A DNA stretch of 64,000 nt, taken from a virus. A model generated the notes under the pieces. That model did not search any database, was not told the DNA's origin, and saw only the letters and a program-made list of their open reading frames with translations. The position numbers and the translations under genes were made by a program. This document shows, one piece after another, positions 2,123 through 54,351 of this stretch. Within the stretch, counting starts at the first letter, position 1. Each line of letters opens with the position of its first letter. The stretch is from positions 1 through 64,000 of the IMG/VR virus record IMGVR_UViG_3300025876_000018. One strand, 5' to 3'.

Positions 2123-3905
2123 TATCTACTTTTTTTAAAAATTCATTTATTATATCATCTTCACCCATTATGGTTCCGATCACTTTCTTTTTTTCATTTA
2201 ATATATCCCATACTAATGTATCTATAGTTTCATCCATTAACATATAATAAATATTAACAGTTTCACTTTGCCCAATTCTATAAGCTCTATCTTCCGCTTG
2301 TTCATGATTACCAGGCACCCAATCCAAAGAGTTCATAATCACAATTTCCGCCTTAGTTAAGGTTAACCCTACACCTGCCGCCTTAATTTGTCCAACAAAC
2401 ACCATACAACTATCATCTTCTTGAAATCTATCTACTGCATGTTGTTTTTGTTTATCAGTCATTCCTCCCCTAACACATACGCATTTATCACCGAAATGGT
2501 TAATAAATGTGTCCATTTCTTCATTAAAATTACAAAATATAATTGTTTTTTTATTTAATTCTAACGCTTCTTCTGTTTTTTCTATAGTATAAGGCACTGT
2601 CTCCATAGATATAAAAGTTCTTAAAAGTGTCATTTCTACTAAATCTTTAGATGGGTTCCCTTTTTTACCATCTAATTTACGTTGTTCAATATACTCATTC
2701 CACACATTTTTATAACCATCTACATTTTCTAATTCTAAATAAACTGGTGTAATTAATTTTTCGGGTAAGTCTAACACATTTTCTTTTTTTCTTCTAAGAA
2801 TAGTTCTTTTTGTTTTTGAAGCCAATTCATCTAAATTAGATGCACCTTTAGTTACCCAAACGTATCTACCACCTTTTCTGAATCTAACGCCCTCACAATA
2901 TGTTTTTGCGAAATGTACCCAATTATTTGTAATCGGAGAATCAATTATTGATAGTAGATTATAATAATCCATAGGCCTATTAGCAATAGGTGTACCTGTA
3001 AGTAACCACACCCTCTCACACCCAAAATTCTTAGATAAATCTTTTAATATCGCACCTCTTTTACTTTTATGATTTTTAACATAGTGAGCCTCATCTAAAA
3101 TTAACAAATCAGGATTAAAATTTACTATGTCTCTCATAAGTTCCCATTCTTCATAATTTTTATTTTTTTCCGCAACTGTGTGGAAATTTTTTAATATATC
3201 ATAATTAATTATGGTAAATCTAGATGGGTCCCAATGAGTACCGCTTATGATAGAAACGTCCTCACAAAAGTTTTGGACTTCTCTCATCCAGTTAATTTTA
3301 AGTGAGGAAGGGCATATAATTAAGACTCTTTCTGCGTTACATTCTAATGCAGCAACAATGGACTGATATGTTTTACCCAATCCCATATCATCCGCTAAAA
3401 TACATTTTTTATTTTTTAATAAAAATTTAATTCCGTCTTCTTGATGTTTAAATGCGCGCCAACCTCTCTTATCTAATTTACTATACTTTTCAAAATCAAC
3501 ATCAACATCAATTTCTTCATAATGTATGTCATCTAAAATCTGTGTTTTAGGTACCCAAATCAGTTTAACATCTTTTTGATTTTTATATAGTTTACAAATA
3601 ATGTGAATAGCTTTATCAGATTCTGCTAATAAAGTTTCTACAAATATTTTTTTAGGTAAAATTTTTAAATTGTGCTCTTCTTTTAATTCATTAGAAAAAT
3701 AGTCTGTTAGTTCTACCACTTTATTTAAAATAATTGGTTCAAAATGTAAATATTTTTTTACGTATTTAGATTGATTATTAGTTAGGAAGTATTTTTTTTC
3801 TGTCTCTATTTTTTTCTTCATATATTTTATATAAGGGTTATTACCCTTATATGTAGCAAGTAAATCTTCACCATCTAGATTTTTTATATCTTTAATATCT
3901 AACAT
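2112..3905 (-). CDS. SNF2-family DNA helicase/translocase
   Basis: A 597-aa superfamily 2 ATPase of the SNF2/SWI2 type. Visible motifs: Walker A DMGLGKT (173-179), DEAH Walker B (271-274), motif III TGTP (303-306), and C-terminal GVGLTLTKA, then QAEDRAYRIGQ (motifs V-VI; the arginine finger is in the RIGQ-type signature typical of SNF2). The N-terminal about 140 residues are unassigned. Proteins of this class translocate on double-stranded DNA and remodel protein-DNA complexes or forks. In T4-like phages the related UvsW (also SF2) acts in recombination and in the switch from origin to recombination-dependent replication, but the RIGQ motif places this one in SNF2 rather than UvsW. The glutaredoxin gene follows with an 11-nt overlap. 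Transcription diverges from the gp14-like gene. Confidence 0.9.
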   Translation of the reverse strand: MLDIKDIKNLDGEDLLATYKGNNPYIKYMKKKIETEKKYFLTNNQSKYVKKYLHFEPIILNKVVELTDYFSNELKEEHNLKILPKKIFVETLLAESDKAIHIICKLYKNQKDVKLIWVPKTQILDDIHYEEIDVDVDFEKYSKLDKRGWRAFKHQEDGIKFLLKNKKCILADDMGLGKTYQSIVAALECNAERVLIICPSSLKINWMREVQNFCEDVSIISGTHWDPSRFTIINYDILKNFHTVAEKNKNYEEWELMRDIVNFNPDLLILDEAHYVKNHKSKRGAILKDLSKNFGCERVWLLTGTPIANRPMDYYNLLSIIDSPITNNWVHFAKTYCEGVRFRKGGRYVWVTKGASNLDELASKTKRTILRRKKENVLDLPEKLITPVYLELENVDGYKNVWNEYIEQRKLDGKKGNPSKDLVEMTLLRTFISMETVPYTIEKTEEALELNKKTIIFCNFNEEMDTFINHFGDKCVCVRGGMTDKQKQHAVDRFQEDDSCMVFVGQIKAAGVGLTLTKAEIVIMNSLDWVPGNHEQAEDRAYRIGQSETVNIYYMLMDETIDTLVWDILNEKKKVIGTIMGEDDIINEFLKKVDNGS

Positions 3906-21958: not shown

Positions 21959-22447
21959 ATGGCAGATTTATTAATGAGAATGCCTGTTCCTTACGAACCG
22001 TTAAGAAAGAATAGGTTTATTTTGAGATTCCCAGACGAATTAGGAATTCAAGAATGGTGGGTTTCTACAACATCAAGACCTAAATATACGAGTGATGAGG
22101 TAGAGATTCCATTTTTAAATACGTCTACTTTTGTTATTGGTAGATTTAAGTGGGAATCTATTTCCGTAACATTTAGAGACCCTATTGGGCCTTCTGCAAC
22201 ACAAGCGTTAATGGAATGGGTTCGTTTACACTCAGAATCAGTAACAGGTAGACAAGGTTACGCTGCAGGATATAAAAAAGACGTAGAATTAGAAATGTTA
22301 GACCCAACTGGTGTTGTTGTTCAGAAATGGATACTACAAGGTACACAATTAAATGACGCAGATTTTAGTGGGTTAGATTATAATTCTTCTGATTTAGCAG
22401 AAATACAGTGTACACTTCGTTTTGATAGAGCGATTAACGTATTCTAA
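21959..22447 (+). CDS. Tail tube protein, T4 gp19-like
   Basis: A 162-aa tail tube subunit, almost the same length as T4 gp19 (163 aa). Diagnostic features: the opening PVPYEPLRKNRFILRFPDELGIQEWWV, the strand VEIPFLNTSTFVIGRFKWESISVTFRDPIGPSA, the helix ALMEWVRLHSES, and the closing strands around CTLRFDRAINVF. These hexameric rings stack to form the inner tube through which DNA and possibly proteins pass. The start follows an A-rich leader; no other upstream ATG is in frame. Confidence 0.95.
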   Translation: MADLLMRMPVPYEPLRKNRFILRFPDELGIQEWWVSTTSRPKYTSDEVEIPFLNTSTFVIGRFKWESISVTFRDPIGPSATQALMEWVRLHSESVTGRQGYAAGYKKDVELEMLDPTGVVVQKWILQGTQLNDADFSGLDYNSSDLAEIQCTLRFDRAINVF

Positions 22448-28509: not shown

Positions 28510-31020
28510 ATGAAAAATAGGAAGACATTAAGTATTGATAGTAAGAATTTTAACCTACTGATTGAACGTATGAATAAAAAATATACATACGAAGAAAGTA
28601 TAAATAAAATTAGAGATTTAATAGTAGAAGGTCCGGGTAAAAGGATTAAAGAACTAATTATGGGTGGTGCTATTCATGTGGATATTCCAATATCTTTAAG
28701 AAGGATAAGTAATATTTTTGATGTTAATCGTTCAGTTGATATTGCTGATATAGATGGTGTCTTAAAAAGGGGTGTTGATGGTATTATAGAGGATTTCAGT
28801 AGTATGGGGAAGAATTTGACTCCTCTGGATCAAAAAAGTATTAGTAATTTATTTTCATATTTAGAAGGTATAAAAAGTGCTAGTGATAATGCAGGTGACG
28901 CATTAATAAGCATAAATAAAAATTTAAAAAATGGCACCAATTTAGATTTAAACCAAAGAATAGATTTTATTGATGAGGTATATAAAGATAAACCATCGTT
29001 ATTAGACGAGGTTTATCCAAATAAAACAGATTTAAACAAAGTAAAAAACAAAAATGGGGAGTTAAATAGTAGGGATGCAATTGAAAGTAGAATTAAAAAT
29101 AACTTTTTAAGTTTAGATGTTGATGATATTAAATTTTTATATAAAAATGGTACTTATCGGGTAAGGTTTAACCCTAAAAAATTGTTTAGTAAACTTAATC
29201 TTAAAACAGGTGATTTAGTAGTTTGGAATAAAAATTGGGGTAAGGGAAATTATTATATAATACCTTTTGAAGATACTAACCCTTCAATGATAAAGGATTT
29301 GGAGAAAAATGGTTATAAAACGTATACAGAAGCTAATTATACTGGTATTGAGGGAACTATACCTAAAGGTGGGGAAGTAACCGCCATAACACAAAGCAAA
29401 GGCGCTAATTTCTTTTTAAGACTGTTGGTGGGTGCAAATAAAAAAGGTGGTGTTGGTGGTTTTTGGTTTAGAACTAAGTCAGGAAAACGGTTGTTTCCAG
29501 CATATACTTGGGTAGCTTCATCTAAATTAATGTTGTTGATTATAGAATGTGGGGTGCAGGATATTTTTGACAAACAAAAAATAAATCGTTTAGTATCTGG
29601 TGTGGAGAAAGAATACTCTTATACTTTTGCTGATTGTATGTTTGGTAGTGAATATCAAACTAAAGATGGATTAGTGTCATATGAGCCAGTGTTTTATGCG
29701 TGGCATGGATACAATATATTAATACCAGTAACTTTTCAAATTGTATTTGGGGTAGCGGGGAAAGTTTTTAAGGAAGTACTTTTAAATCGATTAGAAAATA
29801 GAAAGGAGGAGTATATAAATAGGTTTAATAATAAAGTGGATGAAATGATGGGGGGATTATCTATTAGGGGGGTGTTAAATTTTGATACTAAACTACAAGT
29901 AGAGGGTAGTGTTAATGAATTATTAGAGGATGAAGATGTTACAATGTATTTTAAGGTCATTAAATGGGCCACTGGGATTGATTATAATGAGAATGATGTT
30001 AAAGAGTTTATTTTAAATACTATTGATGGAATCTCAGAGGCGGAGCTGGATTCTGAAAAGAAGAGAGATGAGGTTCGTAAGGATATTAATGAAAGGATTG
30101 GTAAAGAGATACAAATAAATAATGAAATATCTGTGGAAGGTGATACCAATTATGATATTCAAATAGAAAATTTAAAGGAATTGTTCTATGAAAGTGCAAA
30201 AATGAAAAAAGGTAAAATTATTAACGAAAAACTAATTGCACATAAGAAAGAGTATGATGGTGAATCTGAGGAAATGAAAAAATTATGTATAGATTTGGAA
30301 GTAATGTTAGATTTATATTCTCTTGAAGGTTGGGAACCTGGTGAGAGTTTAGAAGGTTTAAGTGACGCCAATTGTATAGACAGTAAAGAAAAGTTGGAGG
30401 AGATAATTCTTGTGTTTTCAGAAAAAGAAGCAACAGGATATGAGGGGTTAAATGAATTTAATAAAGAAATAAATTGTAACTTATTAACCATTAAAGATTC
30501 ATATAAAAATGGATGTATAAATAATCAAGGTACACAAGTGGTTGATGTAAAAAAAGAAAAAATAAATGGGGTAATAACCACAATTACAATACCTGTGAAA
30601 GATTATACTTTTCAAGAGGTAAAAGAAGTTTCTGGGGAATATAAAATTGTTGCGGGATTTGATGATACAGATTTATTGTTGAAGATGTTATCTATGTCAG
30701 GTTCTATTATTAAAGATACTAATAAAGGTATTAAATTTTTAAATGATAATGGATTAGAGTATAAGGTAGGGACAAAAGGAATGCCCACTGAAGGAAAATT
30801 TTGTGTTAAATTAACGGAGAAAAATCTTAGAACATTAGAAACATATGGAAAAGGAGGTTTTTGTGGAGGATCAGCAGATAAAGCAAAATGCATTAACACC
30901 TTAATTGAAACAATTAAAAATGATGAATATTTATCACAATCTATGGACACTTGGAACGGATGTGTTTATGACGATCTATGGACACTTGGAACGGATGTGA
31001 ATATGGGTGGGAATGAATAA
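28510..31020 (+). CDS. Large tagged protein, unknown function, altered C-terminus
   Basis: An 836-aa protein. The N-terminus has an extended tag-like region with LIE at 17-19 and IVE at 38-40, followed by a basic GPGKRIKEL. A hydrophobic segment at about 401-420 (NILIPVTFQIVFGVAGKVF) could span a membrane. The middle and end are helical and acidic, with a Cys-containing stretch (ANCIDSKEK, INCNLL, NGCINNQ). No enzyme motif found. The last 25 residues are affected by a 35-nt duplication at 30939-30999 that shifts the reading frame; without it the protein would end after SMDTWNGCEYGWE. Probable virion protein of the group between tube and gp26. Confidence 0.65.
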   Translation: MKNRKTLSIDSKNFNLLIERMNKKYTYEESINKIRDLIVEGPGKRIKELIMGGAIHVDIPISLRRISNIFDVNRSVDIADIDGVLKRGVDGIIEDFSSMGKNLTPLDQKSISNLFSYLEGIKSASDNAGDALISINKNLKNGTNLDLNQRIDFIDEVYKDKPSLLDEVYPNKTDLNKVKNKNGELNSRDAIESRIKNNFLSLDVDDIKFLYKNGTYRVRFNPKKLFSKLNLKTGDLVVWNKNWGKGNYYIIPFEDTNPSMIKDLEKNGYKTYTEANYTGIEGTIPKGGEVTAITQSKGANFFLRLLVGANKKGGVGGFWFRTKSGKRLFPAYTWVASSKLMLLIIECGVQDIFDKQKINRLVSGVEKEYSYTFADCMFGSEYQTKDGLVSYEPVFYAWHGYNILIPVTFQIVFGVAGKVFKEVLLNRLENRKEEYINRFNNKVDEMMGGLSIRGVLNFDTKLQVEGSVNELLEDEDVTMYFKVIKWATGIDYNENDVKEFILNTIDGISEAELDSEKKRDEVRKDINERIGKEIQINNEISVEGDTNYDIQIENLKELFYESAKMKKGKIINEKLIAHKKEYDGESEEMKKLCIDLEVMLDLYSLEGWEPGESLEGLSDANCIDSKEKLEEIILVFSEKEATGYEGLNEFNKEINCNLLTIKDSYKNGCINNQGTQVVDVKKEKINGVITTITIPVKDYTFQEVKEVSGEYKIVAGFDDTDLLLKMLSMSGSIIKDTNKGIKFLNDNGLEYKVGTKGMPTEGKFCVKLTEKNLRTLETYGKGGFCGGSADKAKCINTLIETIKNDEYLSQSMDTWNGCVYDDLWTLGTDVNMGGNE
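30939..30999 (+). repeat. Frame-shifting direct duplication at gene end
   Basis: ATCTATGGACACTTGGAACG plus GATGTG occurs at 30939-30964 and again at 30974-30999, an identical 26 nt with a 35-nt offset. Because 35 is not a multiple of three, the second copy is read in another frame (LWTLGTDV instead of MDTWNGC). Confidence 0.9.
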
Positions 31021-31048: not shown

Positions 31049-31837
31049 ATGGAAGAAAATATGAATGACTCATTAATGAGTCCAAACTACATACCTGATG
31101 AGTTAAAAACACCTTATGATATTGTAGAGTTACCATCACAGGGTTTATTATATAAAAATAAAAAAAGTAAAGTTAAAGTAGAATACTTAACCGCTATGGA
31201 TGAATCAATTTTGACTTCTCCTAATTTATCTAAGAATCCTAATCTTATGATAAATGTTTTATTAAAAAGAAAAATAAAAGATTTAGGTTTTGATCCTGAA
31301 GAATTGTTAGAGGGTGATAGAATCGCACTTTTATTATTTTTGAGAGTTACGGGTATAGGTGAAAAATACCCCCAAATAGTTTATGATGCAGAGTCAAACG
31401 ACTTTGTGGAAGGGGAAATTGATTTAACCTCATTGGAACAAAAAAAATTATTAATAAAACCCGATGAAAGAGGTGAGTTTGATTTTACTTTACCGATAAA
31501 AAAACATAAGTTAAAATATAGATTATTAACTTCTAAAGATGAAGAAGAGATTAGTAAACAAGATGAAAATTTAATGAAAAGAGATCCCGATAAAGTATCT
31601 ACACTAAATTTACTTAGGTTAGAAAGGTCAATAATGGGAATTAATGGTGAAAGAGATAAAATGAAAATTTCTAATATTGTTAAAAATTTACCTCTAATGG
31701 ATTCTAGGGCAATTAAAAGTCATATAGAAGAAATGGAACCAGGAATAATATTAAAAACAGTTGCACGGATTCAGGGGGGAGAATCCGTAGATTGCTTTCT
31801 TAGAATCGGAGCGAATTTTTTCTTTCCTAAACTCTAA
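31049..31837 (+). CDS. Baseplate hub assembly protein, T4 gp26-like
   Basis: A 262-aa protein matching the gp26 family scheme: IVELPSQGLLYKNKKSKVKVEYLTAMDESILTSPNL near residues 25-62 ('ELPS-GL-Y---- V-V-YLT--DE-IL--PNL'), then LLEGDRIALLLFLRVTGIGEKYP near 87-109. T4 gp26 is 208 aa. In T4 the order is 25-26-51-27-28-29, where gp26 and gp51 act in baseplate hub assembly. Here the tape measure also lies downstream, and a 59-codon frame follows in the +1 frame without a start codon, so a longer frameshift product is likely (see 31791-31970). Direct evidence is motif-level only. Confidence 0.75.
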   Translation: MEENMNDSLMSPNYIPDELKTPYDIVELPSQGLLYKNKKSKVKVEYLTAMDESILTSPNLSKNPNLMINVLLKRKIKDLGFDPEELLEGDRIALLLFLRVTGIGEKYPQIVYDAESNDFVEGEIDLTSLEQKKLLIKPDERGEFDFTLPIKKHKLKYRLLTSKDEEEISKQDENLMKRDPDKVSTLNLLRLERSIMGINGERDKMKISNIVKNLPLMDSRAIKSHIEEMEPGIILKTVARIQGGESVDCFLRIGANFFFPKL

Positions 31838-31970
31838 ATATTTATCTTATCTTCATAAAGAAATTGGATTTTTAGTTAAAAGTGGAGGGTTTAGTTATTC
31901 AGATATAATGAATATGCCTACATTTTCGAGAAAGGTGTTTATTGAACAAATTTTACCTAATAATGAATAA
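31791..31970 (+). CDS. gp51-like frameshift extension of gp26-like gene
   Basis: This frame opens after TAG 31788-31790 and runs to TAA 31968-31970, overlapping the gp26-like 3' end by 47 nt. It encodes SKYLSYLHKEIGFLVKSGG, then FSYSDIMNMPTFSRKVFIEQ. This looks like real protein and resembles the C-terminal part of tail-assembly chaperones ('F-Y-D-xNMP---R--FIE'). No ATG, GTG or TTG is available before the conserved part; the first ATG is within NMP. The overlap contains AATTTTTTCTTTCC, where tRNA-Phe on TTT could slip +1 onto TTT (or the ribosome could move -2). It is probably made as a gp26 fusion. Confidence 0.5.
   Translation: MAFLESERIFSFLNSKYLSYLHKEIGFLVKSGGFSYSDIMNMPTFSRKVFIEQILPNNE
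31837..31845 (+). promoter_or_regulatory. Late-type promoter motif
   Basis: AATATTTAT at the gp26-like stop codon, inside the frameshift extension frame. It may serve downstream genes or be chance within coding sequence. Confidence 0.25.
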
Positions 31971-33124: not shown

Positions 33125-35173
33125 ATGACAATTGGAGATGATGGTTGGTCTGAGGATGAGTACCAAAAAGAAGTAAAGGCGTTAAGGGAACTTAGATCAG
33201 AAGCAACTAATTGGTATAAGGATATTGATGGTGTTAGTAGGAAGGCTAGGAAAGAGCAAATAGCGCAAATTAATGAGGAGATTGATAGATACAAAGAGTT
33301 ATCTAAAGGTACGGGTAGACTAGCAGAACAAGCAAAAGTATTGTTGGATTTAAAAACCAAAGAACTAGCGGTAGCAAAACAACAAACTCAAGTATTAGGT
33401 AGGGTACAACAAGAAGCCAATGTTACATACAGACAGTTCTTAAACTTTTTGACATCAACGGCAGCTCAATATAACTACGCACAACAAATCGCTAAAGAAT
33501 ATTTGTCAGTATCTAGAGATATTGGTGCGGGTGCAGGTGCTAGTGAAAGATTAACTCAAAATTATAAAGATTCATTAGAACAGGTAATGCAAATGGGTGG
33601 AAGTTTAGAAGATGTAACCAATATAATGAACACAATGGCTGAAGAATCTGGTAGAGCGAAAATTTTAGATTCTGAAGATGTTATAAATATTGAATCAATA
33701 TCTAAAGGTTTGAATATGAGTGCCTCTGATGCTGCCTCAATGGCGGAAAAATTTGATCTTATGGGTGTTTCCACAGACTCTATGGGAAACCATTTAGCAA
33801 ACGTATATAAAGAATCTCAAGCAATAGGTTTAAATGCGAATATGGTGGTAAAATCATTAAGTAAAAATATGAATTCAATTCAATCGTATTCTTTTGCTAA
33901 TGGTGTAAAAGGTATGACTGAAATGGCTAAACAAGCAGTTAAAATGCGTTTAGATGTTTCAGATGTTTTACAAATGTCAGATAAATTTTATCAACCAGAA
34001 GCTGCAATTGAAGCGGCGGCGAACTTACAAATGTTAGGTGGTGACATTGCAAAGGCATTCGGTGATCCTTTTGAGACTATGTATATGGCTAGAAATAAAC
34101 CAGAAGAACTAGCTAAAAAGGTTGGTGAGATGACTGAAAATATGATGCAATTCAATGAAGAAACGGGTGAATATGAAATGCCCGCTGAAGCTAGAATGCA
34201 ACTTAAATCTGCAGGTGAACAATTAGGTATAAATACCGAAAAAATGGTAGAGATGGCTCGTCAAGCATCTAAAATTAAAGATGTAAAAATGAAATTTACT
34301 TCTATTGGGGATGATGATACTAAAGAAAATTTAGCATCTTTAGCGAAATATTCTGAAGAAAAAGGAGAATTTGTAATCAAACATGGGACTGAAGAACTTG
34401 GTTTAGATCAAATTAGTGATGGAATGGCGGAGGAAATTTTAAAGGCTAATGAAAATGAGGGAAAAGATGATAGTGAATTGTTTAAAAATATTGCGATTAA
34501 TACTCAAACTATGTCGGAACAAATGGCTAGTCTTCAAAAGGCTAGTATGGCAACTGTCGCAACAAAAACAAATATGTATGAAGTTGCAGGTGCGGAAATA
34601 AAGGATAATCTTTTAGAACCTATGAAAAAAGGTATGGATGAAGCAGTTAAAAATTTTACAACTAGTTTCGACCCTAAAGCATTATTTAAAGAGGCTAAAT
34701 GGGACACTACTTTTGGTAATGCAACTAAGGAAGTTAAAGAATTCACAAAAGCATTAAAAGAGGATTTAGTAAAATATATTAAATCAGAATCTGAATCCAA
34801 TGAAGGTAGTACACAAGATGAAGGAGAGACAGAAGATGATTTCTTAATGAGAGAAAACGGTTCTACTGTTTCTTTTTCTACAGAAGATGATATTATTGGA
34901 GCAAAAAGAGGTGGACCATTAGATAAATTAATGGATAAAGGGTTACCTAACAAAATGGCGGGGGGTACAACAAATTCTAAAATGGAGTTTGGAAACTTAA
35001 ATATTACAGGTAGAATAGAAATAGTTTCACCAGATGGGTCAGCATCAAATATGGAAATGTCTTCTATTAAACCACAGATTGAAAGTATGATTATTAACCA
35101 ATTAAACGGTACATTTAGAGAAGGAGGAGTACCTTCTAGTAAACAATCTACTGATTATATGGGTCAAAAATAA
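33125..35173 (+). CDS. Tail tape measure protein, gp29-like
   Basis: A 682-aa protein, mainly helical, with an N-terminal coiled coil (residues 12-100, EKVALRELRSEA-like heptads through KQQTQVLGRVQQEA). It contains Gly/Ala-rich amphipathic segments typical of tape measures (RDIGAGAGASERL near 135-147, and ANLQMLGGDIAKAFGDPFE near 300-318). The end includes a basic patch KRGGPLDKLMDKGLPNKMAGG. T4 gp29 is 590 aa. With the rule of about 0.15 nm per residue, the tail would be about 100 nm long. Located downstream of gp26-like and upstream of baseplate genes as expected. The first 3 nt after the preceding stop lead into this ATG, so coupled translation is likely. Confidence 0.75.
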   Translation: MTIGDDGWSEDEYQKEVKALRELRSEATNWYKDIDGVSRKARKEQIAQINEEIDRYKELSKGTGRLAEQAKVLLDLKTKELAVAKQQTQVLGRVQQEANVTYRQFLNFLTSTAAQYNYAQQIAKEYLSVSRDIGAGAGASERLTQNYKDSLEQVMQMGGSLEDVTNIMNTMAEESGRAKILDSEDVINIESISKGLNMSASDAASMAEKFDLMGVSTDSMGNHLANVYKESQAIGLNANMVVKSLSKNMNSIQSYSFANGVKGMTEMAKQAVKMRLDVSDVLQMSDKFYQPEAAIEAAANLQMLGGDIAKAFGDPFETMYMARNKPEELAKKVGEMTENMMQFNEETGEYEMPAEARMQLKSAGEQLGINTEKMVEMARQASKIKDVKMKFTSIGDDDTKENLASLAKYSEEKGEFVIKHGTEELGLDQISDGMAEEILKANENEGKDDSELFKNIAINTQTMSEQMASLQKASMATVATKTNMYEVAGAEIKDNLLEPMKKGMDEAVKNFTTSFDPKALFKEAKWDTTFGNATKEVKEFTKALKEDLVKYIKSESESNEGSTQDEGETEDDFLMRENGSTVSFSTEDDIIGAKRGGPLDKLMDKGLPNKMAGGTTNSKMEFGNLNITGRIEIVSPDGSASNMEMSSIKPQIESMIINQLNGTFREGGVPSSKQSTDYMGQK

Positions 35174-52446: not shown

Positions 52447-54351
52447 ATGGAATACTTACCCCCTAAAAAAAGAAAAAAATTTAAAAATATGGAGTTATCA
52501 AACAAAATTTTATCGGACATTACAGTACATATGAAGTACGCAAAATATATACCAGAATTAAATAGAAGAGAAACTTGGGAAGAATTAGTCACTAGAAATA
52601 AAAATATGCATATTAAGAGATATCCTGAACTAAAAGAGGAAATCGAATTAAAATATAAATATGTGTACGAAAAAAAGGTATTACCATCTATGAGGTCAAT
52701 GCAGTTCGCTGGTAAACCTATTGAGATATCACCTAATAGAGTTTATAATTGTGCATTCCTACCTATAGATCACGTAGATGCATTTTCAGAAACTATGTTC
52801 CTACTTTTAGGTGGGACAGGTGTAGGATATTCAGTTCAAAAACATCATGTAGAAACATTAATGCCAATCAATAAACCTTATAACAAAAGAAAGAGAAGGT
52901 TTTTAGTGGGAGATTCCATTGAAGGTTGGTCTGACGCAATTAAGGTATTAATGAAATCTTACATAGGAGATAAAAGAAGTTCTAAAATTGAATTTGATTT
53001 TTCTGATATCAGACCTAAAGGTGCTAGGTTGGTTACTTCTGGTGGTAAAGCTCCAGGACCACAACCATTAAAAGAGTGTATAGTTAAAATAACTGGAATA
53101 TTAGAAAATAAAAATGATGGAGAAAAATTATCTACATTAGAAACACATGATATTGTTTGTCATATTGCAGATGCAGTATTAGCAGGTGGTATTCGTAGAG
53201 CAGCATTAATTTCATTATTTAGTGCAGATGATGATGAGATGATTTCGTGTAAGTCAGGTAATTGGTGGGAATCAAACCCACAAAGAGGTAGGTCTAATAA
53301 CTCTGCAGTACTTATAAGACACAAAATTACTAAAAAATTCTTTATGGAATTATGGAAAAGAATTGAATTGTCGGGTGCTGGAGAACCAGGAATATACCTA
53401 TCAAATGATAAAGAATGGGGAACAAATCCATGTTGTGAAATAGCTTTAAGACCATTCCAATTCTGTAATTTATGTGAAGTAAATGTTTCAAATATCGAAT
53501 CACAAGCAGATTTAAACTATAGAGTTCAAGCGGCAGCCTTTATAGGGACATTACAAGCAGGTTACACTGACTTTCATTATTTAAGAGAAGTGTGGCAACA
53601 AACTACAGAGAAAGACGCTCTAATAGGTGTTTCTATGACTGGAATAGGTAGTGGAGTTGTATTGGGTTATGATTTAGAAAAATCTGCAGATATTGTAAAA
53701 AGAGAAAATAGTAGAGTTTCTAAACTTATAGGGATTAATAAGTCTGCTAGATGTACAACAGTAAAACCTGCAGGAACTACTTCGTTAACTTTAGGTACAT
53801 CTTCAGGAATACATGCTTGGCACAATGATTATTACATTAGAAGAATTAGAGTTGGTAAGAATGAGTCAATTTACAAATATTTAATTGTGAATCACCCAGA
53901 GTTATTAGAAGACGATTTCTTTAGGGCTCATGATACTGCAATTATTACCATACCACAAAAAGCACCAAAGGGTTCTATTTTAAGAACTGAATCACCTTTT
54001 GATTTATTAGAAAGAGTTAAGAAAGTTGCAACAGAATGGGTTAAAAGTGGTCACAGAACAGGATCTAACACACATAATGTATCTGCCACAATTTCATTAA
54101 GAGAGGAAGATTGGTATTTGGCGGGAGAATGGATGTGGACAAATAAAGAACATTATAATGGATTATCTGTATTACCATATGATGGTGGAACATATACTCA
54201 AGCACCTTTTGAAGATATTACGGAAGAAAAATATAATGAAATGATTAACCATTTAAATAATATTGATTTATCCCTTATTGTTGAAGAAACTGATGAAACT
54301 GATTTAAGTGGTGAGTTAGCTTGTGCAGGTGGTGCCTGTGAAATCCAATAG
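52447..54351 (+). CDS. nrdJ: Class II (B12-dependent) ribonucleotide reductase
   Basis: A 634-aa adenosylcobalamin-dependent reductase of the monomeric type (Lactobacillus RTPR, 739 aa, is the model). Key residues: C102 in VYNCAF and C340 in FQFCNLCE as the substrate-level disulfide pair; C329 in TNPCCE as the thiyl-radical cysteine, with N327 and E331; and C626 and C631 in CAGGAC at the C-terminus, with the same 5-residue spacing as RTPR's C731/C736 shuttle pair. It converts ribonucleotides to deoxyribonucleotides for phage DNA synthesis, without needing oxygen or a second subunit. It requires cobalamin from the host. Electrons may come from the phage glutaredoxin at 1865-2122. It is 39 nt downstream of the helicase. 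Confidence 0.92.
   Translation: MEYLPPKKRKKFKNMELSNKILSDITVHMKYAKYIPELNRRETWEELVTRNKNMHIKRYPELKEEIELKYKYVYEKKVLPSMRSMQFAGKPIEISPNRVYNCAFLPIDHVDAFSETMFLLLGGTGVGYSVQKHHVETLMPINKPYNKRKRRFLVGDSIEGWSDAIKVLMKSYIGDKRSSKIEFDFSDIRPKGARLVTSGGKAPGPQPLKECIVKITGILENKNDGEKLSTLETHDIVCHIADAVLAGGIRRAALISLFSADDDEMISCKSGNWWESNPQRGRSNNSAVLIRHKITKKFFMELWKRIELSGAGEPGIYLSNDKEWGTNPCCEIALRPFQFCNLCEVNVSNIESQADLNYRVQAAAFIGTLQAGYTDFHYLREVWQQTTEKDALIGVSMTGIGSGVVLGYDLEKSADIVKRENSRVSKLIGINKSARCTTVKPAGTTSLTLGTSSGIHAWHNDYYIRRIRVGKNESIYKYLIVNHPELLEDDFFRAHDTAIITIPQKAPKGSILRTESPFDLLERVKKVATEWVKSGHRTGSNTHNVSATISLREEDWYLAGEWMWTNKEHYNGLSVLPYDGGTYTQAPFEDITEEKYNEMINHLNNIDLSLIVEETDETDLSGELACAGGACEIQ

Follow-up and report, generated by a model that had tools for sequence, protein, structure and literature searches.

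Near the middle of the viral DNA analysed here (the window; positions 1–64,000 of IMG/VR record IMGVR_UViG_3300025876_000018, 64,000 nucleotides long) lies a single gene from which, with a probability of about 0.88, a +1 frameshift yields both members of a tail-assembly-chaperone pair belonging to the T4 gp26 family, the ribosome most likely slipping at UUU_CUU_AGA and an upstream hairpin probably helping. The features of this locus and the tail genes of the window named below are all on the plus strand. As described in the initial annotation, a gp26-like ORF (31049–31837, 262 aa, stop TAA 31835–31837), the putative equivalent of the short chaperone G, is overlapped by an ORF in the +1 frame (31791–31970, 59 codons plus stop), which carries a T domain resembling the C-terminal part of T4 gp51. 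The second ORF indeed has no start codon before its conserved part: its first ATG, GTG or TTG is the ATG at 31908, immediately 5′ of the conserved NMP motif. The motif proposed earlier, F-Y-D-x-NMP-x-R-x-FIE, is a loose rendering of the peptide, which actually reads FSYSDIMNMPTFSRKVFIEQIL. We infer that most ribosomes produce the 262-aa short form (G) and that a minority slip into the +1 frame near the 3′ end and produce a 306-aa long form (GT) that ends in a T domain roughly 50 aa long. The window overlap holds no canonical −1 heptamer (XXXYYYZ) leading into the second frame; the second ORF is in +1. An effect of phage tRNAs was considered and rejected: the window contains no tRNA gene. Elsewhere in the window, two near-identical tandem copies of a 35-bp unit (30930–30999) lie at the 3′ end of the 836-aa ORF immediately upstream of the gp26-like gene, and a gene similar to adenosylcobalamin-dependent ribonucleotide reductase (52447–54351) is matched in three stretches and is possibly interrupted by an insertion.

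The overlapping +1 frame is conserved. It is present in the first relative found (58% identical) and in 7 of 7 cultured or assembled phages (Microcystis phage Mel-JY01, Flavobacterium phage immuto, LR756508, Streptomyces phage LuckySocke, Streptococcus phage GXN1, Bacillus phage SP-15 and Pseudomonas phage QdP_Psa3), most of which, together with the first relative, have a similar +1 peptide. Profile scans of viral contigs added at least 186 loci. Beyond the gp26 stop, the +1 frame is open for at least 35 codons in 175 of the 187 listed loci with enough downstream sequence, compared to 35 for the −1 frame and 2 for the zero frame. A T-domain profile, applied like the slip-site counts with our own scripts to loci fetched with gp26-family queries, places T in the +1 frame at 153 of 169 distinct loci among the matches listed, in line with the initial proposal of a programmed +1 frameshift joining gp26-like and gp51-like parts. 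In 12 of the 169, T is in the −1 frame, but one of these (L180) is more plausibly a +1 locus that contains an indel, which leaves 11 −1 loci. Past the gp26 stop, the +1 reading is under purifying selection among close relatives (pN/pS 0.07–0.21; one more diverged pair has 0.70). Once the rules had been formed, a held-out set of 14 further loci was taken from assemblies of bacteria and archaea; one was cut off by a contig end and left out, and all 13 readable loci are of the +1 type with UUU_Y. Such assemblies may just include contigs of phages. A genome scan with the gp26 of SP-15 gave no match.

The sequences also show that the type of junction tracks the direction of the shift across the family. 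An in-frame TTT_Y (UUU_Y in the mRNA; the last one before the stop was taken as the slip site) is found within the overlap at 150 of the 156 +1 loci listed, three of which have an open +1 frame but no match to the T profile; stretches of equal size from other parts of these genes contain the element in 9.1% of cases. Its commonest forms are TTT_TTT_TGG_CCT, TTT_TTT_TAC_CCT and TTT/TTC_TTT_CGN. All 11 −1 loci carry an in-phase T_TTT_TTC, T_TTT_TTT or A_AAT_TTC heptamer (background 0.5%); an in-phase T_TTT_TTY is also present at 10 of 153 +1 loci. The six loci that lack TTT_Y are L138, which has a tandem duplication, L143, in which gp26 stops early, and a related group of four (L186, L189, L191 and L195). 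In the latter, T is in the +1 frame, and TTA_TTT_AAT or CTA_TTC_AAT_CCC_AGT is located near the gp26 stop. In L143, the stop (2537–2540) falls inside gp26 about 70 codons before the normal end; the 3′ part of the gene seems undamaged, as does the T domain. Shine–Dalgarno-like words are found at distances of up to 30 nt in 56% of cases (background 24%), without one fixed spacing. The gp26 gene of Salmonella phage Mutine (Ackermannviridae) is followed, from position 2956 of locus L222 onward, by an unannotated T-like extension of 53 codons in the −1 frame, which lacks a classic heptamer.

Within the window, the slip probably occurs at UUU_CUU_AGA (31796–31804, site A; slipping on UUU_C or CUU_A) and not at the TTTTTT favoured in the initial annotation. 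Either the Phe tRNA would re-pair from UUU to UUC or the Leu tRNA from CUU to UUA, and slipping on TTT_C or CTT_A gives the identical 306-aa product (...DCFL-ESERIFSFLN...). The assignment is based on codon invariance among 14 distinct members of the window clade, which are mostly 45–68% identical (a few pairs are closer). Only 7 of 58 amino acid-invariant degenerate columns are also codon-invariant, and five of the seven fall within the final 13 codons: TTT250, CTT251, AGA252, TTT257 and CCT260. CTT makes up 10.6% of Leu codons, yet it is used by all 14 members at site A. The two-frame constraint accounts for part of this invariance. In 11 of 13 members, C is the last base of the codon that follows AGA (background 10.7%), but a sister clade without CTT_AGA has such C-ended codons too, so they lend little weight to site A. 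Since TTT_CTT is itself a UUU_Y, the window follows the rule of the family; in other clades the site lies about seven codons further downstream.

That position is occupied in the window by AAU_UUU_UUC (31814–31822), which includes the TTTTTT run (31816–31821, site B). The same frameshift taking place there is the second candidate, and we regard it as rather unlikely. In position, site B is the counterpart of the TTT_Y site found in the other +1 clades (e.g. TTT_TTT_TGG_CCT), and its TTT is codon-invariant in the window clade too; however, TTT makes up 91% of Phe codons, so this invariance says little. Slipping at site B would leave unexplained both why TTT_CTT_AGA is codon-invariant and how the conserved hairpin described below is spaced, and in the window clade the excess of structure in the preceding 39 nt is greater for site A (z −2.2) than for site B (z −0.8), a difference not seen at 60 nt. 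Site A probably remains the slip site of the window. The GGGGGGA run (31774–31780) was also considered and rejected. It is in phase for a −1 slip and lies inside the hairpin loop, but a −1 slip would lead to a stop at 31803 and a +1 or −2 slip to the TAG at 31788–31790.

The hairpin (31766–31787) is formed within the coding mRNA by two arms, 31766–31772 (CGGATTC) and 31781–31787 (GAATCCG), which enclose the loop AGGGGGGA. Its 7-bp stem ends 8 nt before the TTT at 31796. It was noticed first and tested afterwards. In an alignment of 11 clade members, 92% of the cells are paired, compared to 27–53% in slid-register controls, and four of the seven pairs display changes on both sides. The predicted minimum free energy is −11.1 in the hairpin region versus −3.8 in the gene body. 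The hairpin folds in other registers in three members (L001, L099 and L101), and the single-sequence minimum of four others (L105, L106, L107 and L109) is a different fold. In other +1 clades, a paired 3′ arm likewise peaks 8–10 nt before the slip codon. Across 133 +1 loci, the 39 nt before the slip are predicted to be more structured than synonymous reshuffles (mean z −1.7), and this excess is found in 57 of 71 non-redundant +1 loci (sign P 3e-7). As the loci share ancestry, P values that treat them as independent are inflated. Predicted excess structure directly upstream of the slip is therefore a general property of the +1 group. It is not clear in the −1 loci (z −0.7, n = 11 only), and nothing points to a stem-loop on the 3′ side: folding in the 60 nt that follow the slip (z −0.42) does not exceed that of the gene body (z −0.44). 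In the window, the hairpin would be able to refold on leaving the ribosome and probably helps the slip. We tentatively propose, as a possible but not the likelier outcome, that +1 frameshifting is stimulated throughout this phage family by a coding-region mRNA hairpin located just 5′ of the slip site, which would refold as the mRNA leaves the ribosome and drive the ribosome forward.

Other origins of the second product are improbable to various degrees. The T domain could be a separate gene, translated from an internal start (e.g. the non-standard ATT at 31791) or by translational coupling. Gene callers do annotate short ORFs from late starts in the relatives, and an internal product, 26′, is annotated for T4 gene 26. 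However, there is no conserved internal start codon for T across the overlaps of the relatives, the late starts would remove the conserved N-terminal part, the type of site follows the direction of the frame, and T is fused in frame to a copy of gp26 in T4 gp51 and in L138/L140 (see below), which together make a separate gene quite improbable. Transcriptional slippage on a T run, in place of a ribosomal slip, agrees with the runs of six to seven T in many +1 loci, but sites without a long run are common (TTC_TTT_CGT, CAG_TTT_CTT, CTG_TTT_CAG) and the longest T run at site A of the window is three, so we rate this mechanism as very improbable.

In a metagenomic virus contig with homopolymer runs, one might suspect an indel introduced by sequencing or assembly, or a gene in decay. 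This explanation is already refuted by the relatives and has practically no probability left: the same frame is found in the 153 distinct loci listed, cultured phages included (SP-15, LIS04, immuto and Mel-JY01), and the low pN/pS of close pairs is not that of a decaying gene. The developments that the initial annotation had named as arguments against its own proposal were all looked for in the relatives, and a conserved ATG, a non-conserved frame and a sequencing error each gave way to results that favour a programmed +1 frameshift within one gene.

The gp26-like protein of the window matches the baseplate hub family phrog_150 (3e-5). Its score for PF12322 (T4_baseplate), 18.4 bits, is under the cut-off of 24.5, but several relatives pass this cut-off and four of them (L005–L008) score 42–100 bits. 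The AlphaFold model of the window protein has a pLDDT of 89 and matches the gp26 models of SP-15 and Aeromonas phage 25. The window +1 peptide alone has no significant family match. Among relatives, the T peptide of L119 matches phrog_634, ‘baseplate hub assembly catalyst’ (3e-7), as do that of cyanophage S-CAM22 (1e-32) and T4 gp51 (1e-23). T domains, e.g. that of L119 (1551–1736), give weak matches to DUF6760 (PF20546; best 18.3 bits, cut-off 27). DUF6760 was considered as a possible connection to the contractile injection systems of bacteria and rejected (weak matches below the cut-off, best E 0.0025), and a genome search for the DUF6760 family gave no match.

Both T4 gp26 and gp51 are full-length members of PF12322 (215 and 178 bits), and the C-terminus of gp51 is longer by about 45 residues. 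This extra part matches the T profile (hhalign probability 86%, P 5e-6; gp26 control 0.7%). Sequence comparison thus identifies the T4 proteins as paralogues, with gp26 equivalent to the short form and gp51 to the short form plus T. The earlier description of 26 and 51 as separate T4 genes is correct as to their number, but gp51 is not an unrelated neighbour. Since it is a gp26 paralogue with T fused to it, T4 has swapped the frameshift for a duplication. A tree of 97 sequences places the T4 pair among −1 members, adjoining Citrobacter phage Ci1, with moderate support (83–85), and its well-supported branches require that the direction changed at least twice. In L138/L140, two gp26 copies (1769–2759 and 2754–3786) follow one another; the first has no slip site and the second has T fused in frame. 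To judge from their sequences, this lineage, which is separate from that of T4, arrived independently at a T4-like arrangement by tandem duplication.

The correspondence of T4 gp26 and gp51 to a short form and a short form plus T points to a tail-assembly-chaperone (G/GT) system, and the initial analogy to the chaperones of lambda and Mu was apt. If the pair acts like lambda G/GT, the tape-measure protein would be coated by the short form, and T would serve to recruit tube subunits. Gene position agrees with this assignment: in the relatives, the gene lies between the genes for the major tail tube and the tape measure (in the first relative and the seven phages usually between the tail tube and a long tape-measure-like gene), in the order gp26-like gene, small ORF, tape measure. 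In the window, a tail tube gene (21959–22447, phrog_4542 4e-24) and a long ORF in the tape-measure position (33125–35173, named by position, with no family match) are present, but other genes intervene between the two. Position, family and G/GT logic together indicate a chaperone function. A PDB fold search with the AlphaFold model returned 85 matches, none with an E value below 1 and thus no significant chaperone match. Similarity of the model to the HK97 chaperone (2ob9, E 2.3, probability 0.28) and the YqbN chaperone (3klu, 0.08) is only suggestive.

T4 gp26/gp51 belong to the same family and comprise the same two forms as the window proteins, but they are encoded by two diverged, oppositely oriented genes, unlike the single frameshifted gene of the window phage. 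T4 gp51 is an essential protein that does not occur in the virion (PMC3004832). According to papers that cite the work of Vladimirov, Gautam and Davidson (2022; cited in PMC10885494 and PMC12846349), gp26/gp51 were identified there as tail-assembly chaperones, and T4-like phages can use a short gene and a fused long gene; T-run −1 sites in some T4-like phages are also cited from it. As far as these citations go, a frameshift in a T4-like phage is therefore less new than initially supposed. Chaperone genes of Vandenendeviridae and Andersonviridae use a −1 frameshift at GTTTTT (PMC12846349), with a similar logic and a T-run site but in the direction opposite to that of the window. Lambda gpG/gpGT and the chaperones of other long-tailed phages resemble our system in gene position (as seen in the relatives), in their short and frameshift-extended products and in the expected minority of the extension. 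They differ in direction (usually −1), and no significant sequence similarity was seen. UUU_Y-type +1 sites are used by influenza PA-X (UCC_UUU_CGU) and Yersinia YopN-TyeA (PMC5009743). These genes are unrelated but share the slip chemistry of the window family, several members of which, e.g. L007, contain UUU_CGU itself; PA-X has no evident stimulator, in contrast to the 5′ hairpin of the window. A cyanophage ‘gp51’ of about 20% of normal length, similar only to the C-terminus of gp51, was reported in 2010 (PMC3037559, Fig. S3), in a text that does not mention frameshifting. It is a T domain following gp26, as in the window; in cyanophage S-CAM22, T is in the −1 frame after AGT_TTT_TTC.

A 2016 review described G/T frameshifting as conserved in long-tailed phages ‘except T4’. 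The gp26 family fits this exception into the general pattern: most members found are +1, several are −1, and T4 and the unrelated L138/L140 have duplicated the gene. It also accounts for the truncated cyanophage ‘gp51’ genes and for orphan short ORFs in front of tape-measure genes. For the study of +1 frameshifting in bacteria, the family supplies many natural examples and a testable candidate for a 5′ hairpin stimulator.
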